NCBI RefSeq assembly: GCF_000195915.1 | Contig: NC_002578.1 | Span: 682,001-746,000 of the forward strand | From: Thermoplasma acidophilum DSM 1728 | Lineage (GTDB): Archaea > Thermoplasmatota > Thermoplasmata > Thermoplasmatales > Thermoplasmataceae | Direction: 5' to 3' | DNA: 64,000 bases | Part shown: piece after piece, positions 39,955 to 54,119 of the stretch | How the letters are laid out: each line of letters opens with the position of its first letter | Numbering within the stretch: the first letter of the stretch is position 1 | Translations under genes and position numbers: made by a program | Notes under the pieces: model-generated | Seen by the model: only the letters and a program-made list of their open reading frames with translations | Database searches by the model: none | Told to the model about the DNA's origin: nothing

Positions 39955-41013
39955 ATGACAGATCCGGATATTGGCGACAGCCAGGACCATGCAAACATAA
40001 TATCGATACTTCAGGATCTCGGTCTTACGGAAAATGAATCCAGAGTGTACATATTGTTGCTTGAATACGGAAGCATGGCCGCACAGGATATACTGCGATA
40101 TCTGCCGCTGAGGCAACCACAGCTGTACGACATAACCTCTAGCCTCGAGAGGAAGGGTTTCATAAACGTTCTCCTAGGGCGCCCCAAGAAATATGAAGCC
40201 ATAGATCCCGAGGCAGTTGTGGAGGCCAGAGAACAGATTCTGAGCCGGAACAGGCGCTACTTTCTGACGTGGGCAAATCGGGCTATGGAAACCAGACGCG
40301 AGACAACCGCTCTGATCAATGCCAAAAATATAAGGAGCGTCATCAACAATTCCATAGATCTGATAAATGAGACGGAGAAAACTTTAGAGATAGAGACAAC
40401 ACAGGAGCTGTTTGCATACATCAGGGAACCCATTCTGAGGAAGATAAGGGAGGGATGCCGCGTTGAGATCCTCTTCTTCGGTACGGATGTCGATCTGGAA
40501 AAAGTGCAGAATCAGTTCACGGATCTCGATGTGGATGTGAGGTATGTTTCTCCCGGGCAGTTCTTTACGGTGATTTCTGATGAGAAAAATTCGGTATTTA
40601 TGCCTCGTAGCGTCGCCATGAACACAGATATAGAGAGATACGGATATGTGATAAGGGATAAGGACATGTCATGGTTCATTACACACAATTTCTTCGTTGG
40701 ATGGTACAGGGGAAATCGGATAAAGGATCACTCCGTAGTCGCTCCATATACTTACCATTCTCAGAGAATACTCATAAGCGATCTGAAGAGGATCTTTGAC
40801 CAAAAAGGCAGGGTGCACGGGGTATTGGAAGGTATAGTGCGTTCCACCGGCGATCGTTTTACATCCGAAGGAGAGATCTCTGAGATCAATTCTGATACGG
40901 AGATCATAAACTTCGTGTTCAAGACTGATAGAGGGGAGTATACCGTTGGCGGTTACGATTCCCAAATAGAGGACATAGTTATGAAGTCCTTTACTGTTGC
41001 ATCGTTTGGCTAA
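39955..41013 (+). CDS. TrmB-family sugar-responsive transcription regulator
   Basis: 352 aa. N-terminal winged helix (LGLTENESRVYILLLEYGSMAAQDILRYLPL, about 22-52) followed by GRPKKYEAIDPEAV, the hallmark linker of TrmB proteins; the C-terminal about 230 residues are the sugar-sensing TrmB domain. TrmB proteins control maltose/trehalose ABC transporters in archaea. It converges on exactly such a locus (41052-47635), so it is the likely local regulator. Confidence 0.87.
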   Translation: MTDPDIGDSQDHANIISILQDLGLTENESRVYILLLEYGSMAAQDILRYLPLRQPQLYDITSSLERKGFINVLLGRPKKYEAIDPEAVVEAREQILSRNRRYFLTWANRAMETRRETTALINAKNIRSVINNSIDLINETEKTLEIETTQELFAYIREPILRKIREGCRVEILFFGTDVDLEKVQNQFTDLDVDVRYVSPGQFFTVISDEKNSVFMPRSVAMNTDIERYGYVIRDKDMSWFITHNFFVGWYRGNRIKDHSVVAPYTYHSQRILISDLKRIFDQKGRVHGVLEGIVRSTGDRFTSEGEISEINSDTEIINFVFKTDRGEYTVGGYDSQIEDIVMKSFTVASFG

Positions 41014-41051: not shown

Positions 41052-42779
41052 TCATAAAATGAAATCATAATACTTATTGCGGAATCTGACATTTTTCAGA
41101 GTAGCACCGCCTGGCATCAAGCTCGAATTGAACGGCTTGGAAATCAGCCGCCCGCCTTCGGAGTGGATGCCGAAAAAACCCTCCACAATCGATTCTATGT
41201 ATATGGCTGCAGACCATGCCTGCAGGTAGCATCCCTGAGGGTTGTTGCTTATCTCAGGGTATGCACCCGGAGAGAATAATCCAAGGGATCTGTCCAGCAT
41301 TTTGAAATATCTGGCCGCATTCTCGGCGTCCCCATACCTGATCGATCCCAGCACAAACATTCCGGTGTTCACCGGCATGGAATTCCCACTGGCATCAACA
41401 ACGATTCCAGATGAGCTGGAAATACGTGATAGGCCGCCTCCATCTGAAACGAATTTTCTGTACTGATCGATGCCTGCAATACCTGTGTAGAACGGAATTA
41501 TTGACGTCCAGAAGCCAAGGTCAACGGGAACGCCGTCCACTATCCTATTTGCAAACGTTCTTCTTTCCGACATCCAGAATGATTGTACCGTCTTCCTGAG
41601 TGCGTCTATGGCCTCAGTTGGCTTAACCGCGTCGGCAATCCCTCCGAACGCCTCCTGATCCATATCCATGACCTTCTGAAGCTCCATGAGGGACATGATG
41701 GTGAATGAAATCGTATCTATGTCTACGCCCTCTCCAGCTTTCGGATCCTCCATTATCCCTCTGCCCTGGAAACCATGAGCGAAGAGGTAGTTGAAGGATT
41801 CAGATGCGATAGTGGCCAAATGCCTCATCTCTTCCGTATAACCTGCCCATTCTGCGTATTTGAAAACTGCGTATGGAAAAAGCGCTGTTTCCTCCAGATC
41901 GCCGTCGTTGTAGACCTTTCCACTGGTCAGTATCTCATGCGGTATCTTTCCTGATTTGCTGTATCTAGCAAGTATATTGAGAGATCCGAAAGCAAGCTCG
42001 AAGAGCCCAGCATCCAGGATGCCGTTGAAAGAGAGAAGGGTGTCGATCCCGAAATACCATGGAAAATCTGGATGGCCAGCGGTCAAGCCGTATCCAGTTT
42101 CCTGATTTATCAGTGAAAGCCTTATCAGGTTATCCTTCGCTGTCCGAAAGTTCTCACCTATCTGTCCTCCTCCCCGAAGCAATGAAAACCTGTCAATGTC
42201 TCTGTATCTATTAACCCGGATCGGCGGTCGATGCGAATGCAGGCATGCGGATGAAATTCTCAGTGAAGACTTGCCGTCAGCAAGAAGTGATAATCGCCCG
42301 TTTTCTATGGAAAACTCGGAGGAGGCGGCTATTCTGAGGCGAGTTTCAGGGAACATGTGGCTATATATGATTGCCGAACGCCTGTTCACCTTTATTCTCG
42401 TATCGTTTACAGTGTACCAAACAGTCTCTGGGTGAAGTTCTACGATAAGCTTCCTGACGTCATTAGAAGCGTTTTTGACCGCGATCTCAAAATCATTGTC
42501 ATCCTGGAATGAAATTTGAAGTGTTGTTCCATAGAATTCGAATCGAGCTTCAGAATATCCAATTTCCGCGTGCGCTGGTTTGAAAACCGTCTTGCCGTCG
42601 CTGACATATATATTCTTCAGCACACGCAGAGGCGGATACCAGAGGCCGTTCATCTCGCCTCTCTTGTGGTATCCCATTCCGTCTGGTCGGAGGTCCAGGT
42701 AGCCTATGTAATAAGCGTAGTTGGACGATATGGTGAATGGCCTGTGATTCGGATCTTCGATTTCAATCGTATTTCTCAC
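41052..42779 (-). CDS. Glycogen-debranching-enzyme-like glycosidase (second copy)
   Basis: 575 aa. N-terminal beta-rich domain (about 1-210), then an (alpha/alpha)6 barrel of the amylo-alpha-1,6-glucosidase/GDE type: FPWYFGIDTLLSFNG at about 240, SGKIPHEI at about 275, DTISFTIMSL, and GVPVDLGFWTS toward the C-terminus. It overlaps the upstream 648-aa paralogue by 4 nt; the shared motifs W/YFG.D and GRIPHE/GKIPHE indicate tandem paralogues. Cytoplasmic hydrolysis of imported oligosaccharide is likely. Confidence 0.75.
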   Translation of the reverse strand: MRNTIEIEDPNHRPFTISSNYAYYIGYLDLRPDGMGYHKRGEMNGLWYPPLRVLKNIYVSDGKTVFKPAHAEIGYSEARFEFYGTTLQISFQDDNDFEIAVKNASNDVRKLIVELHPETVWYTVNDTRIKVNRRSAIIYSHMFPETRLRIAASSEFSIENGRLSLLADGKSSLRISSACLHSHRPPIRVNRYRDIDRFSLLRGGGQIGENFRTAKDNLIRLSLINQETGYGLTAGHPDFPWYFGIDTLLSFNGILDAGLFELAFGSLNILARYSKSGKIPHEILTSGKVYNDGDLEETALFPYAVFKYAEWAGYTEEMRHLATIASESFNYLFAHGFQGRGIMEDPKAGEGVDIDTISFTIMSLMELQKVMDMDQEAFGGIADAVKPTEAIDALRKTVQSFWMSERRTFANRIVDGVPVDLGFWTSIIPFYTGIAGIDQYRKFVSDGGGLSRISSSSGIVVDASGNSMPVNTGMFVLGSIRYGDAENAARYFKMLDRSLGLFSPGAYPEISNNPQGCYLQAWSAAIYIESIVEGFFGIHSEGGRLISKPFNSSLMPGGATLKNVRFRNKYYDFIL

Positions 42780-44722
42780 TTCCTTGCACCATCTGAGGCC
42801 GCAATTTCTGCATCCCTTAGTACAGGGCCATTCTCCGAGAACACCAAATCATACAGTTTTCCTCTCCAGGGGAGACGATACAGCTTCACCGTCTTCCATC
42901 CGTCAGGCAAATGGTATCCTCCTCTGAATTCGGAAGGATCGAAGGACAACGGATCGATGTTAAGCATACCCTGCAGAACTGAAAGCAGAAGCATGGATGA
43001 GGACCATCCCTGTGCAAACTGCCCGGTAGGCTGCGGCATCATAGCATCGTAAGTTTCGTTGATCCTTCCGGGATCGTCAGCAGAGAAGGCCAGATCAACG
43101 AACGTCCTCATCTGGTTAAAGGCCAAGTCCGGCAATCCGTTCTTGTACGCAGCGATTACAAACCATCCTGTCATGAGGGGCCAGACTGTACCCGTATGAT
43201 AGCCACCATCGTACATCGGATCGTAAACTGACATGGATCTTATTCCCCATGGCGTCATCATACCTGCCGAAAGATCCTTTATCCTGCTACGGATGGCCTC
43301 ATTCCTCATGAATATTCCAGGCACAAACTGCATGGCGCTTCTTATTTCGTGATATTCCATGTCCACGAAATCAACGCTGTTCGCGCCGGCGAAGAAGGTT
43401 GACATGTACCTGTCTCTGATCTTCTGGTATTCGTCATAGCCGAATCTGTAGCCGAAAATGCGGAGTACCTCGATCCACAGTGCATTGACATCGACCGTTT
43501 TCCCGTTCCTGATGTTTGCCCACGTTTCCGGCCAGCCTATCAGCCCGCGCCGGAAATCATTCTCTATCAGACCATCGCCGTCCGTATCGCAGCTCGCTAT
43601 GAAATCGAAGACCTTCTTCAGGTGACGTTCTTCGAAGCGTGATCGATCCCAATTCTCCATTGACGCGCTGGCAAGAAGCCAGAGCGGGCTGCTGTCGATC
43701 GACATGTACATGGTGTTGAATTTCGTTTCGCCAATGGTGTATCCCTGATCTCCGTCATCCGCCAGGCCTATTTCGTGCGGTATTCTGCCATCATCAGAGT
43801 ATTTCAGTAGCATATTCGTGTGTTCGTATGTCAACCCTGCCAACCCGACCATATTGGCGGCCAGGGCCATCCACAACCCGTCCCTTCCGAAGAACCATGA
43901 GTATACGGGGAAACCTGCAAACCAGCCGCTGCCCCTAGAGGTCTTGGTGTAAAACTCAAGCATATCATGCTTTGCCCAGAGAAAGGCCTTGTTGAACCTA
44001 AAGTCAGGGGTTTCAAGCACGGCAACGTCTGCGATGCTTTCATGGTATCTTATTGTGGATTCGATGCTATCCGCTTCTTCGCTGATATCATCGGATATCA
44101 CAATTTCCGCATCGTGCAGATCATGTATTCTTATCATCACTTTGTCCGCGCAGGCTTCCATAACAGCACGATCAGCGCTGCGGATGGAAATGCATGTTCG
44201 CGATATTTCTGATGAAATGCAGGCGGTGTTGCCTTCGATCCTTGGATTGAAAGTCTCACCCGATGCATGAGATGGCCAGGCGATCGTGTGCCCCACCTCC
44301 AGTTCAAGTTCCAGATCAGCCTTATCCGCTGCAGCGATCTGTATGTGCAGGGATCCGTCCCTCTCCGAAATGTAATCTATTCTGTCAAGGCCCTCGTACT
44401 GCCTGTATATGTAGCCGAGACCCCTGATATACTTTCTGAATGCATCAGAGAACCGTCTTCCGTTCACCGTGCCGTCAAGCGAGGAGATGTGGCTGACGCT
44501 ATCCTTCCAGTAGCCTACCCTTGATCTGTGCATATCCGATCTGCGTATTGTTCCGTTCATGTAGGCTATGAAGTGCGCCTTTGATCCCTTCACCATGGTG
44601 TAGCTGTAAGATTCAAGCGGTCCAGACGGCACCCTTATCCAGTGCCACATGTCCCTGTGATTATCCTCTTCGGTCAATCCACGGATCTCCTCAATCAGCC
44701 TTCTTGATCTCTCTGGAAGCAC
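42776..44722 (-). CDS. Glycogen-debranching-enzyme-like glycosidase (first copy)
   Basis: 648 aa from this start. GDE/glucoamylase-type barrel: YSWFFGRDGLWMALA at about 280, DGRIPHEIG, FNTMYMSIDSSPLWLL, a DTDGDGLIEN loop, WPETWAN, and GTVWPLMTGWF in the C-terminal third. The open frame starts at TTG 44731, but GGAGGT on the minus strand sits 8 nt before an in-frame GTG at 44722, so GTG is preferred. The start lies inside the 3' end of the malK-like gene (translational coupling). Confidence 0.78.
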   Translation of the reverse strand: MLPERSRRLIEEIRGLTEEDNHRDMWHWIRVPSGPLESYSYTMVKGSKAHFIAYMNGTIRRSDMHRSRVGYWKDSVSHISSLDGTVNGRRFSDAFRKYIRGLGYIYRQYEGLDRIDYISERDGSLHIQIAAADKADLELELEVGHTIAWPSHASGETFNPRIEGNTACISSEISRTCISIRSADRAVMEACADKVMIRIHDLHDAEIVISDDISEEADSIESTIRYHESIADVAVLETPDFRFNKAFLWAKHDMLEFYTKTSRGSGWFAGFPVYSWFFGRDGLWMALAANMVGLAGLTYEHTNMLLKYSDDGRIPHEIGLADDGDQGYTIGETKFNTMYMSIDSSPLWLLASASMENWDRSRFEERHLKKVFDFIASCDTDGDGLIENDFRRGLIGWPETWANIRNGKTVDVNALWIEVLRIFGYRFGYDEYQKIRDRYMSTFFAGANSVDFVDMEYHEIRSAMQFVPGIFMRNEAIRSRIKDLSAGMMTPWGIRSMSVYDPMYDGGYHTGTVWPLMTGWFVIAAYKNGLPDLAFNQMRTFVDLAFSADDPGRINETYDAMMPQPTGQFAQGWSSSMLLLSVLQGMLNIDPLSFDPSEFRGGYHLPDGWKTVKLYRLPWRGKLYDLVFSENGPVLRDAEIAASDGARK

Positions 44723-45809
44723 CGTAATCAACCTCCTTTACTATCGATCCGCTCTCCCTGTCGTAGAGATATATCGTGCCGGGTTTCACCTTCAAATGTA
44801 TGGATTCTCCGTTGCGCAGATCTCTGAGATTTGCAGGGATCTCCTCTTTGGGAATGACCGCCCTGATGGGCGTATCACCGATCTTAACGTGCACCTCGGC
44901 GTTAAGGCCGGAATTTATGAAATAGTCGAATGAAGCAGATATGCCATCATGATCGGATAGGCCTATCAGCTCAGGCCTTATGCCGATGAACATCTTGCCC
45001 TCTGGTATTTCATCATCAACTTCCAGGTATCCAGAATTCATGACGTCTATCCTTGTACCTCCTGATTTCTCCTCGGCGTCGCATTCAAGAATGTTCATTG
45101 GGGGATTTCCTATGAATCCAGCTACAAAAACGTTCGCGGGGTGATCGTACAGTTCATCAGGAGTTCCGAGCTGCATTATCTGCCCCTGGTTGAGGACAAG
45201 TATCCTGTCCGCAAGCGCCATCGCCTCATCCTGATCGTGGCACACGTAGATTATGGTCTTCTTTACCTTCTCATGGAATGATCTTAGCTCACCGAGCATC
45301 TCCCGCCGAAGCTTGGCATCAAGGTTCGATAGCGGTTCGTCCATCAGAAAAACCGAAGGATCACGAACCATGGCCCTTGCGATACCAACACGCTGCTGTT
45401 CACCGCCGGATAGCTGTCTCGGGTATTTCTGCAGATGCTGGCTTATGTGAAGCATCTCTGCAACGTCACTAACCTTCTTCTTGATCTCATCCTTTGGAAC
45501 GTGCTTGATCTTAAGATTCAGTGAGATGTTGTCGTATACGGTCATATGGGGATAGAGCGCGAAGTTCTGGAAGACCATGGCAATGTTCCTGTCCGATGGA
45601 TACAGATCCGTTACATCATTGCCATCTATGAGTATCCTGCCATCATCGATTGGTATCAGGCCGGCTATGCTTCTAAGCAGCGTTGTCTTTCCACTTCCCG
45701 AAGATCCGAGGATGACGAAGAACTCTCCGTCTTCCACCCTCAGGTTGAAATTCTTCAATATGTACTTGTCTCCATATCTTGCTGTGAGATTCTCTATTAT
45801 AACGCTCAT
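44691..45809 (-). CDS. Sugar ABC transporter ATP-binding protein (MalK/MsmK type)
   Basis: 372 aa. Walker A GSSGSGKTT (35-43), Q-loop QNFALYPHM (81-89), signature LSGGEQQR (133-140), Walker B VFLMDEP (153-159), H-switch CHDQDEA, then an about 130-residue OB/TOBE regulatory domain typical of CUT1 sugar transporters. Energises the MalF/MalG-like permeases encoded directly upstream. Confidence 0.93.
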   Translation of the reverse strand: MSVIIENLTARYGDKYILKNFNLRVEDGEFFVILGSSGSGKTTLLRSIAGLIPIDDGRILIDGNDVTDLYPSDRNIAMVFQNFALYPHMTVYDNISLNLKIKHVPKDEIKKKVSDVAEMLHISQHLQKYPRQLSGGEQQRVGIARAMVRDPSVFLMDEPLSNLDAKLRREMLGELRSFHEKVKKTIIYVCHDQDEAMALADRILVLNQGQIMQLGTPDELYDHPANVFVAGFIGNPPMNILECDAEEKSGGTRIDVMNSGYLEVDDEIPEGKMFIGIRPELIGLSDHDGISASFDYFINSGLNAEVHVKIGDTPIRAVIPKEEIPANLRDLRNGESIHLKVKPGTIYLYDRESGSIVKEVDYGASREIKKAD

Positions 45810-45813
45810 GCTT

Positions 45814-46689
45814 TCACCTTGAATAATTCATGGATATGCCGCTGATGAAGTACTTCTCGAAGACCACGAATATGACGATCGTAGGTATCATCGTGAGTAT
45901 GTTCACCGTCATCATCTGATTCCAATATATCTGCGTCCCGTTTGCCCCCTTGAAGAAGTTCAGCACCAGAGGAAGGGTGAACATGTTCAGGCTGTGCACC
46001 TCCATAAGCGGCCAGAGGAAGTTGTTCCAGGATCCTATGAAGGAGAATATGGTTGCCGCCGCTATGGCCGGTTTGGCCATGGGTGCACTGACCCTGAAGA
46101 ATATCTGCCATGGCTTCATGCCATCTATCTTTGCTGCAAGCTCAACCTCCTCGGGGATGGTTAGGAAATACTGCCGCATTATGAAAACGTCCAGGGCGGA
46201 AGCGATCTGCGGGAGTATCAGTCCCTGATAGGTGCTGAGCCAGTTCAGATCGAGCATGAAGACATAGGAAGCTATCGATATGACGGGGAATGGTATCATC
46301 AGCGTTGCGAGGACTGCATAAAACATGTAATCCCTTCCTGGGAATTTCAGCCTTGCAAATGCATAGCCCGCAAGCATGCCAACGAACACGCTACCTGCCA
46401 CAACGCAGATCGAAACGAAAACACTGTTGAAGTACCACAGCGGAAAGTCACCGAAACCCCAGACCGTCCTGAGGTTCACTATGAAGTAGGATATGCTGGT
46501 CTGGCTGAAAGGATTCATATTCGGTGGAAAATTGGCAAATATGCTGTCCCTGAAGGCCTTTATGACTGTCCAGTAGAATGGAACAAGGTAAACTATAGCC
46601 AGAAGTATTGACACCACGTAGATCAGGTAGGTCTTGACGCTCTCTCCTGCACTTATGCGTCTCCGTCTTCTGAATTCGGTTCTGAGCAT
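45814..46689 (-). CDS. Sugar ABC transporter permease (MalG type)
   Basis: 291 aa, six membrane spans. The EAA loop ELAAKIDGMKPWQIFFRVSAPMAKP at about 190-215 contacts the ATPase. The N-terminus is basic (RTEFRRRRRIS). It sits 4 nt upstream of the ATPase gene and 1 nt downstream of the MalF-like gene. CUT1-family partner permease. Confidence 0.92.
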   Translation of the reverse strand: MLRTEFRRRRRISAGESVKTYLIYVVSILLAIVYLVPFYWTVIKAFRDSIFANFPPNMNPFSQTSISYFIVNLRTVWGFGDFPLWYFNSVFVSICVVAGSVFVGMLAGYAFARLKFPGRDYMFYAVLATLMIPFPVISIASYVFMLDLNWLSTYQGLILPQIASALDVFIMRQYFLTIPEEVELAAKIDGMKPWQIFFRVSAPMAKPAIAAATIFSFIGSWNNFLWPLMEVHSLNMFTLPLVLNFFKGANGTQIYWNQMMTVNILTMIPTIVIFVVFEKYFISGISMNYSR

Positions 46690-46690
46690 T

Positions 46691-47635
46691 TCACCACCTC
46701 CTCTCAGTTATGACCCTTCTCTGTGTTATGGTTAACACGAGGATTATGACGAAGAGAACGAATGAAGCTGCGGCGGCCAGCCCTATATCACCAACGTACA
46801 CGAAGGTTCTGTTGTATATGTACATCAAGGGCACGTACGTTGCCCTTGCCGGTCCGCCATCGGTTATAACGTATATCTGATCAAACAGTTGCATCGCGCC
46901 TGTCAGGCCGAGGATAACTACTAGTATGGTTGAAAATCGCATCAGAGGGAAATAAACATAACGGAATCGCCTGAGACCTGACTTCAAGCCATCGATCTTC
47001 GCGGCATCCATGACCTCCTGCGGTATAGCCTGAAGGCCGGCCGAGTAAACTATCATGAAATACGGTGCGGTTGTGAATATGTTCATGGCCATTATGGCAG
47101 GGAAAGCATATACCGTGCTGAAAAGCCAGTTGTGCGGTGGTATTCCGAAGAATGACAGGAAATAGTTGACGAGTCCGGTGTTCGAAAATACCCATATGAA
47201 TATTATGGACATGGACACCGGGGATACCACAGCAGGAATGAACACTATGGCCCTGGCAACCCTGCTTATCTTCGATGCAGTGTTGAAGAGAAGCGCGTAT
47301 CCAAAGGCGAGGAACGTCTGAACGGTCACCACAACGGCCGTGTATATGAGCACGTTTATCAGGGATTTTATGAATGCCGGATCCCTTATAACGTAAAGAT
47401 AATTGGAAAAGCCAACGAAGTGGATATCATGAAAGAATGGATCGTAATGAAACAGGCTTATTGCAAATGAATAAATTGCCGGGAAGAAGGTGAAAACAAT
47501 CACAAAAATCATGAGTGGGATCACGAAGATTATACCGGTTGTTCTCTCCGGATCCCTCTTCTTCTTCTTCCTTTCCCTCACATTTATCTTTTCATTTCTG
47601 TACAGATTTGACTCCACAGACCTCACCGGGGTCAC
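46691..47635 (-). CDS. Sugar ABC transporter permease (MalF type)
   Basis: 314 aa with six membrane spans after a charged N-terminal segment (NVRERKKKKRDPERT). The EAA loop EVMDAAKIDGLKSGLRRFRYVYFPLM is at about 222-247. It overlaps the chimeric upstream ORF by 4 nt. The spacing is what one would expect after a solute-binding-protein gene, and the upstream ORF indeed ends with binding-protein sequence. Confidence 0.9.
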   Translation of the reverse strand: MTPVRSVESNLYRNEKINVRERKKKKRDPERTTGIIFVIPLMIFVIVFTFFPAIYSFAISLFHYDPFFHDIHFVGFSNYLYVIRDPAFIKSLINVLIYTAVVVTVQTFLAFGYALLFNTASKISRVARAIVFIPAVVSPVSMSIIFIWVFSNTGLVNYFLSFFGIPPHNWLFSTVYAFPAIMAMNIFTTAPYFMIVYSAGLQAIPQEVMDAAKIDGLKSGLRRFRYVYFPLMRFSTILVVILGLTGAMQLFDQIYVITDGGPARATYVPLMYIYNRTFVYVGDIGLAAAASFVLFVIILVLTITQRRVITERRW

Positions 47636-49293
47636 AGTGTAGACGTTCCCTTAAGGTTTGCATTGGTCTCGTTGATTATCTGGTCGTAGGCCTGCGTTGG
47701 CGTTATCTTGCCAGCGAACAGATCAACTATTATGCTATGGGCAGCGCTCTCAGTTGCCTGGAAGTTCGTTGTATTGTAGTTCCAGCCATAGGCATGCGGG
47801 AACTGCTCACCCGCGAAGCTCTGTATCGGGAAGTTGGTCTTGTACCAACTGCTATCAAGTATGGCTGTCCTTGACGGCAAGGCGAGGCCTTTTGATACCC
47901 ACTGCTTCTCTCCGCTCGGTCCGGTGAAGAACATCACGAACTGTTCAGCGATCCACTTCTGCTGCGGTGTGAGATGGCTGTTTATGGCCAGGCCTCCCGG
48001 AGTTATGAAGTTTAGCGGATCATCTATCCTGAAATACTGTGCTATACCGTTCTTGCTCCAGCCGACGTCTGTTATCAGCGATATCGATCTATCCTCATCG
48101 ATCAACTCCTGTAAAACGCGTATGACGTAATTTGGCTTTATTCTGCCACTGCCCATCTCGCATCTCATGAAATCGTCATAATAGCCATCAAGCCCCTTTC
48201 TGAACTCGGAATACCAGCCTGAATTCTTCCCTGAGCGGACATGCGATCGATGCTTCAGTTCATCAATAATTTCAGATACGGTGGCCTTTGCATCACCCTG
48301 GAGGAACATGTCCTCGGGGTAATCCTTTGATCTTTCTTTTTCGTCGATATCTATGCGCAGCAGATCGGTCTTGCTGAAGTCAAAGGTGTATCCTTCGATC
48401 CAGGAACTAGAGTTCACCTCTCCGAATCTCGTGCCCACAGCTATTATCAAATCAGACTCAAGCGAAGCCTTGTTTGCATATGGATTGCCCCACCCGCCTA
48501 AAAACCCAAGAGATCTCTCATTGTGCTCGGGGAAGGTTCCCTTACCTCCCATGGTTGTGGCTACAGGGGCATTAAGCAATTCCGAAAGCTCCTCGATCTC
48601 CTTACCTGCTTCTGATAGCCTGACACCGCCACCTGCAAGTATCAGTATCTTCTCATGCTGAAGGATGAAATCGACTGCTTTCCTTATCGTTTCACGGTCA
48701 GGCGCAAACCTAGATTCATTCAAACTGTGCTTTGCAGTGAACAGGCCATACTTGTCGGTCTTTAAAGCGAATATATCCATCGGCACGTCAACTAGCGAGA
48801 CGCCTGGCCTACCGTCAAGTGCAATAGAAAATGCACGGTCCATTATCCTCTCTATATTCTCAACATGGTTTATCCTCCATGCCCTCTTGGCGAACGGAAC
48901 GTAGACGAGATACTGTGAAAGATCAGTGACCTGGTTTATCTCCTGATGCGGCCCTGCCCCTTCGTAAACAGATGGGGCATCTCCGGATATCACGATGAGC
49001 GGCGATGAATCAAGTGCTGCGGTGGCAACACCGGTGGTGGCGTTGAGGAGTCCTGGGCCAATGTGCGTTATGACAACGCCTGGTTTGTGGGAAGCGCGGA
49101 AATAACCGTCAGCGGCATGCGCTGCTATCTGCTCATGCCTCACTGCAACTAGCTTGATCTTCGTCTTCCTTATGGCCTCGTACAGGCTCAGTATCGTGTG
49201 ACCGGTGAGGGTGAAAACGTACTCAACGCCATTCCTTTCCAGGTATTCGGCTATGATGTCAGCTCCGGATTTGATATCTTTTTCAGACGCCAT
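47632..49293 (-). CDS. Chimeric ORF: ThDP-dependent (acetolactate-synthase-like) enzyme fused to sugar-binding-protein C-terminus
   Basis: 553 aa. Residues 1-436 are a ThDP enzyme: PYR domain with the activating Glu (E54 in VRHEQIAAHAADGY), GPGLLNATTGVATA, central domain with TTMGGKGTFPEHN, and the opening of the PP domain (LITDVGWSKNGIAQYF...FITPGGLA). The PP domain then stops before the GDG...N Mg/ThDP motif. Residues 437-553 switch to a CUT1 solute-binding protein: INSHLTPQQKWIAEQFVMFFTG, LALPSRTAILDSS, FQATESAAHSIIVDLFAGKITPTQAY. The join falls at GGLA, a string plausible in both families. The product should be inactive both as a decarboxylase/synthase and as a binding protein. Best read as a deletion fusion or an assembly join. 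Confidence 0.85.
   Translation of the reverse strand: MASEKDIKSGADIIAEYLERNGVEYVFTLTGHTILSLYEAIRKTKIKLVAVRHEQIAAHAADGYFRASHKPGVVITHIGPGLLNATTGVATAALDSSPLIVISGDAPSVYEGAGPHQEINQVTDLSQYLVYVPFAKRAWRINHVENIERIMDRAFSIALDGRPGVSLVDVPMDIFALKTDKYGLFTAKHSLNESRFAPDRETIRKAVDFILQHEKILILAGGGVRLSEAGKEIEELSELLNAPVATTMGGKGTFPEHNERSLGFLGGWGNPYANKASLESDLIIAVGTRFGEVNSSSWIEGYTFDFSKTDLLRIDIDEKERSKDYPEDMFLQGDAKATVSEIIDELKHRSHVRSGKNSGWYSEFRKGLDGYYDDFMRCEMGSGRIKPNYVIRVLQELIDEDRSISLITDVGWSKNGIAQYFRIDDPLNFITPGGLAINSHLTPQQKWIAEQFVMFFTGPSGEKQWVSKGLALPSRTAILDSSWYKTNFPIQSFAGEQFPHAYGWNYNTTNFQATESAAHSIIVDLFAGKITPTQAYDQIINETNANLKGTSTL
47986..48000 (-). other. Fusion junction in the ThDP enzyme/binding-protein chimera
   Basis: Coding strand reads CCGGGAGGCCTGGCC then ATAAACAGC: Pro-Gly-Gly-Leu-Ala of the ThDP enzyme runs directly into Ile-Asn-Ser-His of the binding protein, in frame. 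A GGLA string is usual in both parent families at these positions, so the exact crossover base lies within this short shared stretch, as expected for recombination or misassembly at microhomology. Confidence 0.7.
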
Positions 49294-49380
49294 GATAAAA
49301 GAAACGGAATTCTGTTAATATACTTGTTATCTAATGCATTAAACTTAGAAAATATGAAAAATAAAGGTTTAATACTGTCC

Positions 49381-50694
49381 CTAAGACGGAACAGCTTTTT
49401 TAAGCAGCAGCGGGCGATACTTCGTGAATACGACTGTACCGACGAAGTAGACGATGCCGATGAGCACAAACATGTATATGCCGGGCGCATACTTGTGCGT
49501 GACGGATAACAGAGCTCCAAAAGCCAGTGGCACTATTATGCCCCACAGCGTCTCCCAGAACCCTATGTGTCCGCCCCACTGACCGGCATACTCCTTTGGT
49601 ACCAGGAAGGAGCTGACAGCCCACTGGATTCCAGACCACCTCAGGAAGAAGAAGGTCACAGCCAGTATCTCCACGGCGAGTATCGGGGATCTTGCAAGTG
49701 CCGTAGCCAGCAGACCGAAGGTCACGCCAAGTGAACTCACGGTGAAGCCTATCTTCATGCCCGTATTCGGTCCGCGCGTCCTGTTGATGTAGTCTATGAC
49801 GAAACCGCCAGTTATCTCTCCAATGAAGCCAAAGCCCCATATCAGTGCTGTATACGCCAGGGTGAATGTGAGCGTAAAGTGCCTTGCTTCGTACAGATAG
49901 AGTGGTAGCCATGTAAGCAGGCCGAAGAATATGCCTGCCTGCGCTCCGAGACCCATCATGGATCCCCAGTAATCACCGGTTCTGAACCAGGCTGAAACAG
50001 GTGCCTTTGTCTGTTCAACGGCCTTCTCCTGATTTGATCTGATGTATTCAAGCTCTTCCTTGCTGATCTTTGGGTGCTTCTCAGGTGTATCGTACAGTAT
50101 GAATATGAGCCCGAAGGAGAGCAGAATCGTCAGGGTACCGCTGATGAGCAGTGCGTATCTCCAGGCGACGCCCGGCGGTATAATGAGATCAACACCAAGA
50201 AGCAGAAGAGAGCCTAGTATTATACCGACGTTCACTCCGCTGTCGCCTATTGTACCGCTTCTGGCCTTTTCCTGCCTCGGCATCCACTCTGCGGTTATCT
50301 TTGTGACCCCTGGAAAGCCGACCGCCTCCATTACACCTAAAAATACCCTTGCAATGACCAGATACGCAGCAGAAAAAGCACCTGCCGTTGCCGCCTGCAC
50401 GGCACCCCATCCGATCCCGAATCTCGTCACCGCAAGCCTGGAACCGTAGCGATCCAGTATGTATCCCACGACCGGATTCATTATGAGGTATCCGTAGGTG
50501 AACCCATCACCGATTGCAGCCTGCAGTATTGGACTGAGATGGAATTCCGTCGTGAGCACTGGAAGAGCTGACGTGACCAATCCCCGGTCTATGTAGTCGA
50601 ACGTTATGAAGCCGAAGACCATGAGGACAATCGTCCATCGTATGTGCCCTACTGGCCTGTTCACATTCTTAACATCTGATATGTTTTCAGCCAT
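49381..50694 (-). CDS. MFS transporter, ACS (sugar acid/anion) type
   Basis: 437 aa, 12 membrane spans. FITFDYIDRGLVTSALPVL in TM1, GYILDRYGSRLAV (MFS loop motif) and RVFLGVMEAVGFPGVTKITAEWMPRQEKARS in TM4-5 are typical of the anion:cation symporter family (hexuronate, glucarate, tartronate). It lies 87 nt upstream of the chimeric ThDP ORF on the same strand, suggesting that the original ThDP enzyme worked on a compound imported by this carrier. Confidence 0.87.
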   Translation of the reverse strand: MAENISDVKNVNRPVGHIRWTIVLMVFGFITFDYIDRGLVTSALPVLTTEFHLSPILQAAIGDGFTYGYLIMNPVVGYILDRYGSRLAVTRFGIGWGAVQAATAGAFSAAYLVIARVFLGVMEAVGFPGVTKITAEWMPRQEKARSGTIGDSGVNVGIILGSLLLLGVDLIIPPGVAWRYALLISGTLTILLSFGLIFILYDTPEKHPKISKEELEYIRSNQEKAVEQTKAPVSAWFRTGDYWGSMMGLGAQAGIFFGLLTWLPLYLYEARHFTLTFTLAYTALIWGFGFIGEITGGFVIDYINRTRGPNTGMKIGFTVSSLGVTFGLLATALARSPILAVEILAVTFFFLRWSGIQWAVSSFLVPKEYAGQWGGHIGFWETLWGIIVPLAFGALLSVTHKYAPGIYMFVLIGIVYFVGTVVFTKYRPLLLKKAVPS

Positions 50695-50945
50695 ATTCTA
50701 ACATGGAGCAAGCTTTATTTAAATCCCATTTCAAATACATTAGAAGAAATGACAGATAGAATGTTCAGAAAAAATATGATGAAAATATCCAAATTTAAAC
50801 TGTCCTTTATGAAGAAGATGCGAAGTCCAATTACTCGGATGCAGATGTAGCGATCTTTATGAATAGTCAGCGGTGACACGGATCATCATGCCATCGGTAC
50901 AGTTTTCACTTAGATTGCGCTAGTTATTTGTGATGATCTGCCTGA
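50695..50945. other. Intergenic spacer upstream of the MFS gene
   Basis: 251 nt of AT-rich sequence. TTTATTT/AAATCC-type elements close to 50710-50725 should form the minus-strand promoter of the MFS gene. No gene, RNA or repeat is apparent. Confidence 0.35.
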
Positions 50946-51113
50946 CTATCTTACCACGGCAATATAGATCTGGTCATCTTTCTGATAGAAACCTATAATG
51001 TCCCCTTGGTAAGCATCAAGCATCTTTGCTATCCTGCGTGTGAGCGATATTCTCAATGTGCTGTTTGTTAATGTGGCCTTGCTGGTATCTATTAATTTCC
51101 CTTCATGAGCCAT
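50946..51113 (-). CDS. Small AbrB/SpoVT-like (swapped-hairpin) protein, 55 aa
   Basis: 55 aa, starts MAHEGKLIDTSK. The segment STLRISLTRRIAKMLDAYQGDIIGFYQKDDQIYIAVVR follows the AbrB pattern: beta strand (LRISLTRRIAKML aligns with VTIPKKVRELL), helix, GDII.FY, acidic turn, terminal strand. A TTTTAATA box 28 nt upstream of the ATG suits a leaderless transcript. AbrB-fold proteins are DNA-binding regulators or antitoxins; no toxin gene is seen next to it. Confidence 0.7.
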   Translation of the reverse strand: MAHEGKLIDTSKATLTNSTLRISLTRRIAKMLDAYQGDIIGFYQKDDQIYIAVVR

Positions 51114-52095
51114 TTTCTGGGATCCATAGAATGTATTAAAACATTATTATATTATATAATGTTTACAATAAAAAAATAATGCAACAGTTATAATAGTTGC
51201 AAGAGTTGACATTTTGATATGAATCTTTTTGCCTTAAGGCATTGCATAGTTGCCGTCATAATGATAATGCCAATTTACAGCATAGATTTGGATGTTCTCC
51301 ATCTATTTGGTACGATTAATCATGACAGGGCGATTTTGGGATTCCTCAATAATTCGATGTATAAATGATTAGTAAGGAGCCTGAGCGAAGGGATCAAGGG
51401 CAATACTGTATGCTACTGTTTACTGGTACAACCATGAAGATATTTCGCCGTAGGTCTTTTGATGCACGAAGAGATAGGGAAAAGCAATGACCAATGACTG
51501 GCTTCACTGTCAATTGGGAGATCAGTTGTTTGGCAACTTCATAAGGGCACTACTGTGATTTTGCATTTTTCTAAATATATACTGTGAAGGTTGAGTGTGA
51601 ATAAATTATATTTTATCTTCATTTAATATTATCATTCCTAGGGTAAACTCCATATGATAATAGAATAATTCCACAAAAAACATAGATTCAGGTTCATATA
51701 CGCAGGAGCTAATGACTCTTTCCTAATACAATGGATAACTTCTAATATCCCGAAAATCGAATGGAAGAGTCGCTAAAGAACTTGGAAATCTTGATCAATA
51801 GAGTTAGATCTTTTATTCACTTTATATTCATGTTCTTGCATATATGACCCTTGTTAATTTAAGAATACTTTTCTAGCTCTGACAGAAACTTATTCTCACA
51901 AGTGCTTCAAGAATGTCTTATCGTTCATTATCCTGTCAGCTATGTAATTTAATTTATTTTTGCAGATCTAGGCGCCTCCTAAATTACCTAAGACAAATAT
52001 TTTACAACGATAGCTCAGCATTGGAGCTTTTCATAAGAATTTGAATTCCTAATCTGCTGTGATAAAAACTTAATATGACAGTAATATAAACAGAC
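51114..52095. other. 982-nt AT-rich region without a convincing gene
   Basis: This is the boundary into the glycan island. A 49-codon plus-strand frame at 51219-51368 (starts MNLFALRHC, hydrophobic centre) has no family match by eye and is not called. Many short frames are interrupted, as in decayed DNA. The last 35 nt hold ACTTAATAT at about 52068-52076, a TATA-like box about 25 nt before the epimerase ATG. Confidence 0.4.
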
Positions 52096-52875
52096 ATGAA
52101 AATTCTGGTGACTGGCAACAAAGGCTTCATTGGCGGACATATATATAATTATTTGAAAGCAAGGAATTATGAGGTATATGGATATGATATTGGCGATACA
52201 TTGGAGGACGTCAAATATGATTTTATAATCCACATGGCCGCAAGGGGATTGATAAGATTATCCAAGGAATACCCTTATGAATACTTTCAGGACGGGTTGG
52301 CCCTTACGATGAAATTTCTTGAACTTGCAAGAAAGAACAATTCTATGTTTATTTTTCCATCATCGGGTTCAATAGAAAATCCAACGAATCCATATTCTCT
52401 TGGTAAGAAACAAGCGGTTGAATGGATAAGATTATTCAACAAATTGTATAACCTAAATTATTTCATATTGAAATTCTTCAACATATATGGGGAAAATGCC
52501 AGGAAGGGTGCAGTATATCTCTTTACAAGGGCGGCACTCACAGGAGAAACAGCAACTGTTTACGGAGACGGTTCCCATGTGAGGGATTATTTATACGTAG
52601 GAGACGTCGTAAAGCTTGTGGAAGACATAATAAATGGTCGTCTCAATAGTGGAGAATATGAGGTAGGTTCCGGCATTGGCACATCTGTCAATGAATTGAT
52701 AAGTCTTATAGAAGATGTGACAAAAAGGAAAATAAAGTTTATTCGAAAAGACTACGTAGTCGATGAGGCCGATAATCTAGTAGCAAAAAATACAGTTATC
52801 AAGCGTCCATTACCGTTGAAAGAGGGCATTGAAAGAGTAATGCAGTGGATAAAGGAAAGCGAAATTAAGGCTTAA
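52096..52875 (+). CDS. NAD-dependent epimerase/dehydratase (nucleotide-sugar SDR)
   Basis: 259 aa, short for the extended-SDR family (about 310). ILVTGNKGFIGGHIYNYL is the NAD motif, HMAARG the third conserved block, and NPYSLGKKQAVEW (about 98-110) contains the catalytic YxxxK; GDGSHVRDYLYVGDVV is the sugar-nucleotide-binding segment. Probably a UDP/dTDP-sugar 4-epimerase or dehydratase that feeds the neighbouring glycosyltransferases. First gene of the AT-rich island. Confidence 0.85.
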   Translation: MKILVTGNKGFIGGHIYNYLKARNYEVYGYDIGDTLEDVKYDFIIHMAARGLIRLSKEYPYEYFQDGLALTMKFLELARKNNSMFIFPSSGSIENPTNPYSLGKKQAVEWIRLFNKLYNLNYFILKFFNIYGENARKGAVYLFTRAALTGETATVYGDGSHVRDYLYVGDVVKLVEDIINGRLNSGEYEVGSGIGTSVNELISLIEDVTKRKIKFIRKDYVVDEADNLVAKNTVIKRPLPLKEGIERVMQWIKESEIKA

Positions 52876-53015
52876 TTTGATTGTAAGAAAATAATGCAAC
52901 ATTGGAATACTCAAGATAAGCCTAAACATCTGGAAACCATTAAATATCTAGATGGATGATCTGGGCTACATAATATCATCTAGACAGGAAGAACAAAAAG
53001 ATTGGGAGGTATTGA

Positions 53016-53819
53016 ATGAGCAAAACAGTATGCGTAATAAACGACTATTATAATTCTCCATTGGTATCTAAAGCCATTAACAGCGCCATGAACCAGGTTG
53101 ATGGAATAGTGGTGGTAGGTTCTCCTGGGAGAAATTTGGAAATTGAAGACGAAAAGGTAACATTTATCCAGAGTCAAATATCTGATGTGGGAAAGAGATA
53201 TTTCATTGGTCTTGAAAAAATAGATGCTGATTATTATTTTCTGCTTGACTATGACGACATATTCCTATCAAATAAAGTAAATGCCCTCAAGCGTGTTTTC
53301 GAAAATGGAAAGGGCGGCGCTGCAAAAGAATCCGAATACTACAATCCGTCTTTAAATTACATCAGTAATGTCATAAGAAATCGCATCGATTGGCATATTT
53401 CAGAATATTCTTTTGATGCTGATTTTAAGAAATACCTCCTGAAATTCGTGGAAAAATATTCTATACCAACCCACGTGAGCTTTGATAAGATACTTTTCGC
53501 TATAATGCTGAATTATGGTAATATGCACGTTGTAAACAGCAAATTGACTGAAATCGTTTCACACGGCGATTCAAGGATGCATGCAAAAAGGAAAAGAAAG
53601 TTTTACAGCGAGACCTATAAGGTTTTTGAGAAGTTTAAAAGTATACCGGATCTTAACCAAAGCTGCAGGCAGTATGTTGAATACACTTATGATCTGAACC
53701 GTTACCTGTCTGAACCTACGAGGGAAAATTATGAACATTTGTTGGCATCTGGAAAATATCCTATTCCTCTGTATAAGCGACTCTATTATAAATACTATTC
53801 AATAATGAAGCCCGAATGA
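53016..53819 (+). CDS. Family-2-like glycosyltransferase
   Basis: 267 aa. GT-A-like: N-terminal VCVINDYYNSPLVSKAINSAMNQ (nucleotide-binding strand-helix), then DADYYFLLDYDDIFLSNKV at about 69-87, whose Asp cluster corresponds to the metal-binding DxD region. The central part (SEYYNPSLNYISN) is not family-typical, and no membrane segment is present. Probable cytoplasmic transferase for surface glycan assembly. Confidence 0.65.
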   Translation: MSKTVCVINDYYNSPLVSKAINSAMNQVDGIVVVGSPGRNLEIEDEKVTFIQSQISDVGKRYFIGLEKIDADYYFLLDYDDIFLSNKVNALKRVFENGKGGAAKESEYYNPSLNYISNVIRNRIDWHISEYSFDADFKKYLLKFVEKYSIPTHVSFDKILFAIMLNYGNMHVVNSKLTEIVSHGDSRMHAKRKRKFYSETYKVFEKFKSIPDLNQSCRQYVEYTYDLNRYLSEPTRENYEHLLASGKYPIPLYKRLYYKYYSIMKPE

Positions 53820-54119
53820 CCGTCCATCTAAGTGAAACAATTAGGTAGATGATCCGACGTTTATCATCGTCAGGGTAATGAACGAAGTATTATGTTTGTT
53901 CGTTCATCGTTTTTAAAGAGATTAATGTTTCCAAAAAAGCACTTTGATTGCATGCCGCACTATATATGATATGGCTTTATAGACTTTAGAATTTAGGCGG
54001 AAGATTTACTGGTATATACCGTGAAATATGTGCAGAACACAATCTGCCTTCGAAGACATGAGAAATATGGCATGTATATACAGTAATATTATTATTATAA
54101 ATTATTATAATCCTTTTCG
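53820..54119. other. 300-nt spacer with an inverted repeat
   Basis: No gene. ATGAACGAA (53878-53886) and TTCGTTCAT (53899-53907) form a perfect 9-bp inverted repeat with a 12-nt loop, followed by CGTTTTTAAAG, 58 nt after the preceding stop. It could terminate the glycosyltransferase transcript. The AT-rich block TTATTATAAATTATTATAATCC at about 54092-54113 is the probable promoter of the next gene. Confidence 0.5.

Follow-up and report, generated by a model that had tools for sequence, protein, structure and literature searches.

An in-frame chimera of a ThDP-enzyme gene and a sugar-binding protein gene in Thermoplasma acidophilum DSM 1728, probably formed by a recent deletion

At the head of a sugar importer operon in the genome of Thermoplasma acidophilum DSM 1728 (G000 in our genome set), a single open reading frame begins as one protein and ends as another. 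How did parts of two genes come to share one frame, and what has become of the proteins and operons they belonged to? The locus was analyzed within a window of 64,000 nucleotides of contig NC_002578.1 (positions 682,001 to 746,000), in which the frame occupies 47632..49293. It lies on the minus strand and runs through 553 codons with no internal stop, uninterrupted as described in the initial annotation, which named no strand.

Pfam matches are confined to the first part of the frame: TPP_enzyme_N (PF02776) covers residues 9-122 (E=4.7e-39) and TPP_enzyme_M (PF00205) residues 203-341 (E=8.1e-37), with no C-terminal TPP domain and no Pfam match past residue 341. A protein search of 40 related genomes divides the frame cleanly, residues 1-437 retrieving ThDP enzymes and residues 433-553 the end of solute-binding proteins (SBPs). 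The former are 86% identical to a 596-aa ThDP enzyme of the same-genus genome G003 (open frame of 601 codons), and residues 432/433-553 are 87-93% identical to SBP C-termini of same-family genomes, the tail reaching 93-94% with the congeneric G003 and G001; the open frames of the SBP homologs matched by the tail measure 440-448 codons in several genomes. Codons 1-436 (47987..49293, minus strand) thus represent the first three quarters of a ThDP enzyme gene of acetolactate-synthase-like type, assigned by Pfam and by identity to G003. This part encodes the PYR domain, including the conserved VRHEQIAAH segment with the catalytic Glu, and the central domain. The remaining 117 codons and stop (47632..47985, minus strand) are the 3′ quarter of a CUT1-type sugar SBP gene, identified by the C-termini of the G003 and G001 proteins; they correspond to 117 of 440 residues (27%), the C-terminal quarter that had been proposed. 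Alignment to the intact G003 enzyme, which continues ...TPGGLATMGFAPGAALG...VVGDGGFSST...NNW..., places the switch before the GDG...NN cofactor motif, again as first described, and this motif is replaced in the fusion. On the SBP side, the full set of signal or membrane anchor and both lobes is lacking, the last 117 residues alone having been retained.

The hybrid is expected to be inactive both as an enzyme and as an SBP, because it is missing the cofactor-binding C-terminal domain of the former and, from the latter, the anchor, the N-lobe and the greater share of the ligand-binding part. The diphosphate-binding PP domain is needed by all ThDP enzymes of the acetolactate-synthase-like class, and both proteins have very probably been destroyed by the fusion. 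The earlier suggestion of a membrane-recruited ThDP-domain protein found no support, as the SBP membrane anchor falls in the deleted part. It is most improbable that the 553-aa product has an established function as a hybrid, for example in regulation or as a scaffold. A frame open over 553 codons with no excess of non-synonymous change would suit such a role, but the architecture occurs in 0 of the 40 genomes searched, the protein has lost the cofactor domain, the membrane anchor and the ligand lobe, and AlphaFold2 modeling of the whole ORF was of low confidence from residue 402 on, with pLDDT below 50 for residues 402-512 and a mean of 57, a weak indication given the shallow, 10-sequence alignment. 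A conserved family with this architecture is ruled out: none was found in the 40 related genomes or in GTDB and viral contigs, where the scans reach no further than close relatives and that of GTDB may omit G000 itself. The closest named relatives in the GTDB contig scan were Thermoplasma sp. KMA_Bin19 and Thermogymnomonas acidicola JCM 13583.

When residues 1-436 and 437-553 were searched separately, relatives proved to carry both parents as separate full-length genes in different operons, as predicted. A complete ThDP enzyme is present in four other genomes and measures 593-600 aa where its frame is unbroken (593 aa in G027, 596 in G003, 600 in G009). On contig C32 of G003 it is the second gene of an MFS-ThDP-ALDH cassette that neighbors genes for ADH, a cupin, a type II dehydroquinase (aroQ) and a regulator-like (HTH) protein, and the cassette is found, whole or in large part, also in G010, G009 and G027. 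Its distribution together with these neighbors is patchy, with differing contexts in the four genomes (L020:2700-10105, L021:5633-13074, L034 and L035). The copy in T. acidicola JCM 13583 (G010) shows broken frames resembling assembly errors; across L021 and L022 of this genome, genes that are otherwise conserved contain many doubled bases, seen as extra PP/GG residues, as well as interrupted frames, which suggests sequencing errors in that assembly. The SBP parent, 440 aa with a hydrophobic N-terminal anchor, lies directly upstream of malF-malG-malK in G001, G003 (contig C35, order SBP-MalF-MalG-MalK), G004 and G022, and a 452-aa version stands in the same order in G015. Besides SBP, MalF, MalG and MalK, the sugar operon of these relatives includes two genes that probably encode glycosidases; a TrmB-like gene is found at the end of the cluster away from the SBP.

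T. acidophilum DSM 1728 keeps the whole of this sugar operon minus the 5′ part of the SBP gene, and of the cassette it keeps the MFS gene and the 5′ part of the ThDP gene alone. The MFS transporter gene (49381..50694, minus strand), first in the cassette, is D-galactonate-transporter-like (Pfam MFS_1; TIGR00893 below cut-off) and 93% identical to its G003 counterpart. The latter sits directly upstream of the intact ThDP gene. Just upstream of it, GC content falls abruptly from about 0.50 to 0.32-0.38 (about 50750-54000 in the window and beyond) in a region holding sugar-nucleotide and glycosyltransferase-like ORFs, which is probably a surface-polysaccharide island. On the other side of the fusion, all on the minus strand, follow a MalF-type permease gene (46691..47635; Pfam BPD_transp_1; 90% identity to G003 and G001), probably starting at an in-frame GTG at 47626 as used in relatives, a MalG-type permease gene (45814..46689; BPD_transp_1) and a MalK-type ATPase gene (44691..45809; ABC_tran), the last two conserved in the relatives' operon; the permease pair and ATPase of the importer are thereby present. 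Next come an amylo-alpha-1,6-glucosidase-like (GDE_C) gene (42776..44731, minus strand), assigned by Pfam and conserved in the operon, and a second, putatively glycoside-hydrolase-like gene (41052..42779, minus strand) found at the same position in G001, G004, G015 and G022. These glycosidase-like genes (41052-44731) are 52-68% identical to those of G001 and G003, versus 90-93% for MalF and MalG, indicating much faster divergence. The far end of the cluster is occupied by a TrmB-like sugar regulator gene (39955..41013, plus strand; NCBIfam TrmB models E=7.3e-25, below the equivalog cut-off) at a conserved position.

The junction itself can be located to within a few bases. DNA of G003 aligns to G000 as two blocks, the sugar operon of contig C35 up to 729,994 and the cassette of contig C32 from 729,987, so that the blocks overlap by exactly 8 bp (G000:729987-729994, window 47987-47994, minus strand), which read GGCCTGGC on the coding strand. 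Past the breakpoints, neither G003 locus has a DNA match in G000. Codon comparison shows that these bases encode Gly-Leu-Ala in the same phase in both parent genes, within the enzyme context ...TPGGLATMG... and the SBP context ...NVGLA(I/V)NSH...; the peptide spanning the junction lies around ...FITPGGLAINSHLTPQQK. The switch had first been placed at Gly-Gly-Leu-Ala. At the same register, the ThDP gene of G010 and the SBP gene of G004 share exactly 8 bp, and those of G009 and G001 share 9 bp, the microhomology in each case being deduced from relatives' genes and not from the actual parents. Identity of at least 8/9 at a random in-phase codon triplet pair has a chance of about 2e-4. Since the shared word stands in the same codon phase in both genes, an in-frame join is automatic and needs no further coincidence.

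The pieces that the hybrid lacks were sought in the rest of the genome. The C-terminal 160 residues of the ThDP enzyme and the first 320 of the SBP have no ortholog elsewhere in G000, where the best matches to the ThDP C-terminus are paralogs at 30-37%, and no reciprocal product is present. A reciprocal rearrangement by inversion or translocation is ruled out by this absence of the partner fragments. The cassette's HTH, aroQ, cupin, ADH and ALDH genes are likewise absent from G000 or represented by paralogs at 25-42% only. With separate parents in relatives and the missing pieces gone from G000, the proposal that a deletion fused two operons in frame is supported.

We consider it probable that the front of the ThDP gene and the end of the SBP gene were fused when this lineage or strain recently underwent a deletion whose ends were joined at 8-9 bp of microhomology. 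The ancestral chromosome would have carried the enzyme cassette followed by the SBP operon, with both parents intact, and the deletion would have ended in the GGCCTGGC shared by the ThDP gene of the MFS-ThDP-ALDH cassette and the SBP gene of the TrmB-linked importer operon, the in-phase Gly-Leu-Ala word yielding an in-frame hybrid. Such an event would have removed the enzyme's cofactor domain together with the SBP anchor, ligand lobe, promoter and putative TrmB-type operator, and left malFGK behind the enzyme promoter and without a receptor. Counting the 3′ end of the ThDP gene and the promoter and 5′ portion of the SBP gene, the deletion would measure at least about 1.6 kb; it would be larger had ALDH and the other cassette genes been situated in the interval. 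Archaea have been seen to carry out microhomology-mediated end joining accompanied by deletions (PMC7776575).

The supposed ancestral order, in which the cassette precedes the SBP operon, was seen in no relative; the two occupy different contexts, on separate contigs in G003 and about 139 kb apart in G010. Because of this, a direct illegitimate insertion or replacement has to be weighed, as it gives the same product: incoming MFS-ThDP DNA would have been joined straight into the SBP gene and would have taken the place of its 5′ part. We regard this as unlikely. It would suit the patchy occurrence of the cassette in unrelated contexts in G003, G009, G010 and G027, a transposase-like ORF pair, possibly transposase remnants, close to the cassette in G010 (L021:3588-4498), and the AT-rich island adjoining the cassette remnant in G000. 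However, the G000 copy stops inside the ThDP gene, at a point that bears no trace of an integration boundary, and integration is no simpler than deletion.

The age of the deletion can be approached through the substitution pattern, for which dN alone is usable, dS being about 2 or saturated. The ThDP part has dN of 0.039-0.045 on the G000 branch versus 0.045-0.051 on the sister branch, and the SBP tail 0.018-0.033 versus 0.016-0.031; for the MFS, MalF, MalG, MalK and downstream genes, dN on the two branches is equal. No relaxed selection on the G000 branch was thus seen in any part by this comparison, nor was accelerated evolution after the fusion. If a pseudogene had evolved neutrally for more than a few percent of the G000 branch, excess dN should be visible. 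The lack of such an excess indicates that the fusion is recent and possibly strain-specific or, should the record be faulty, not real.

The last of these readings, in which a gap was closed by a chimeric clone and the record lacks several kb, appears quite unlikely. All parts still look fully constrained, as if nothing were broken, and a chimeric ligation could plausibly have taken place at the junction, whose shared word contains GGCC (a HaeIII site) and which reads AGGCCT (a StuI site) once fused. Against this, a collapse needs a shared repeat and only about 8-9 bp are common, the genome is one closed contig of 1,564,906 bases (99.94% complete), and the missing sequence appears nowhere else in G000, so that a gap would have to have been bridged by a chimeric clone. 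The assembly collapse offered as an alternative in the initial annotation therefore retains a low weight, made unlikely by a repeat at the join of at most about 8-9 bp, and we infer that the fusion arose in the living cell and not during the sequencing project. A literature search returned no description of the fusion locus or of the original sequencing method; for T. acidophilum 122-1B2, DNA and RNA reads are publicly available (PMC6877293, GEO GSE127728).

A recent deletion, as preferred here, would also bear on how the remaining genes are controlled. Upstream of the fusion, the ThDP gene promoter region (49294..49380, minus strand) is conserved with G003 and G010 and includes TTTAATGCATTAGATAACAAGTATATTAACA at 49313-49343. 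The SBP promoter of relatives contains a conserved TACT...AGTA inverted repeat, TACTAATAnnAGTTAGTA, found with 0 mismatches upstream of the SBP gene in four genomes and absent from the window and, at ≤2 mismatches, from G000. As the SBP promoter region is gone and that of the enzyme is kept, malFGK and the two downstream genes would be expected to be transcribed from the enzyme promoter; at the level of sequence, the earlier idea of a transporter under a foreign promoter is thus supported. The regulator-like gene of the ThDP cassette has no ortholog in G000. In G003 and G001, the TrmB-like gene is preceded at a distance of 54 bp by a 2-mismatch copy of the SBP-promoter repeat (L019:474-491 and L032:2384-2401), which suggests that this gene may be autoregulated there; the copy upstream of the TrmB-like gene in G000 (39955-41013) is degenerate, TACAATACAGGTTTAGTA. 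Conceivably, the deletion was a selected promoter capture: the hybrid, expressed from the enzyme promoter, would be retained because its translation sustains expression of malFGK and the downstream glucosidase genes under new regulation, and it might also keep some residual function of its own. We hold this to be very unlikely.

No complete cognate SBP was found beside MalF/MalG/MalK, as had been noted, and substitution by another SBP locally is ruled out, none being encoded near the operon. The only other SBPs of G000 (PF13416/PF01547) are two, at 119.5 and 142.2 kb, some 590-610 kb away, and the one at 119.5 kb adjoins its own permease pair. The malFGK importer is expected to be left without a receptor, which would entail a loss of sugar uptake through it. 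If the fusion is real, the reference genome of a model archaeon would carry a hybrid pseudogene annotated as one ORF, and an importer without a receptor, together with a cassette cut to a transporter and an enzyme stub, would represent mutant physiology that is not typical of the genus.

In comparison with AHAS-like ThDP enzymes (TIGR00118; PDB 7u25, 1ybh, 6lpi), residues 8-437 of the fusion align with the PYR and central domains (E=6e-55 against 7u25; TIGR00118 is the best NCBIfam match), whereas the SBP tail stands in place of the PP domain with the GDG...NN motif of acetolactate synthase; the G003 homolog, although intact, itself scores below the TIGR00118 equivalog cut-off. The intact SBP homolog matches CUT1 sugar SBPs (SBP_bac_8; PDB 5f7v, 8art, 6rjy), from which the fusion differs by the loss of about 320 residues at the N-terminus, among them those of the membrane anchor and N-lobe. 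The operon of the relatives resembles the TrmB-regulated maltose/trehalose (TM) operon of Thermococcales (PMC4158304) in its SBP-MalF-MalG-MalK-glucosidase order, its TrmB-like gene and the TACT...AGTA inverted repeat before the SBP gene. TrmB sites are reported as TACT-N3-AGTA and TACT-N7-8-GAGTA (PMC4158304), and the repeat of the relatives, a candidate operator, has a spacer of 10 bp rather than 3; G000 has lost the SBP-promoter copy and retains a degenerate one upstream of trmB. As a deletion-made chimeric pseudogene, the locus is a further instance of a known and mechanistically ordinary type of mutation, and a clean case of it, with an in-frame join through in-phase codon microhomology that the absence of decay dates as recent. 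In outline, it can be likened to the deletion-derived gene fusions of M. tuberculosis, where neighboring or distant genes are joined into one chimeric ORF (PMC7671302); compared with these as outlined there, the present case differs in being archaeal and in having its join within an in-phase microhomology of 8-9 bp.
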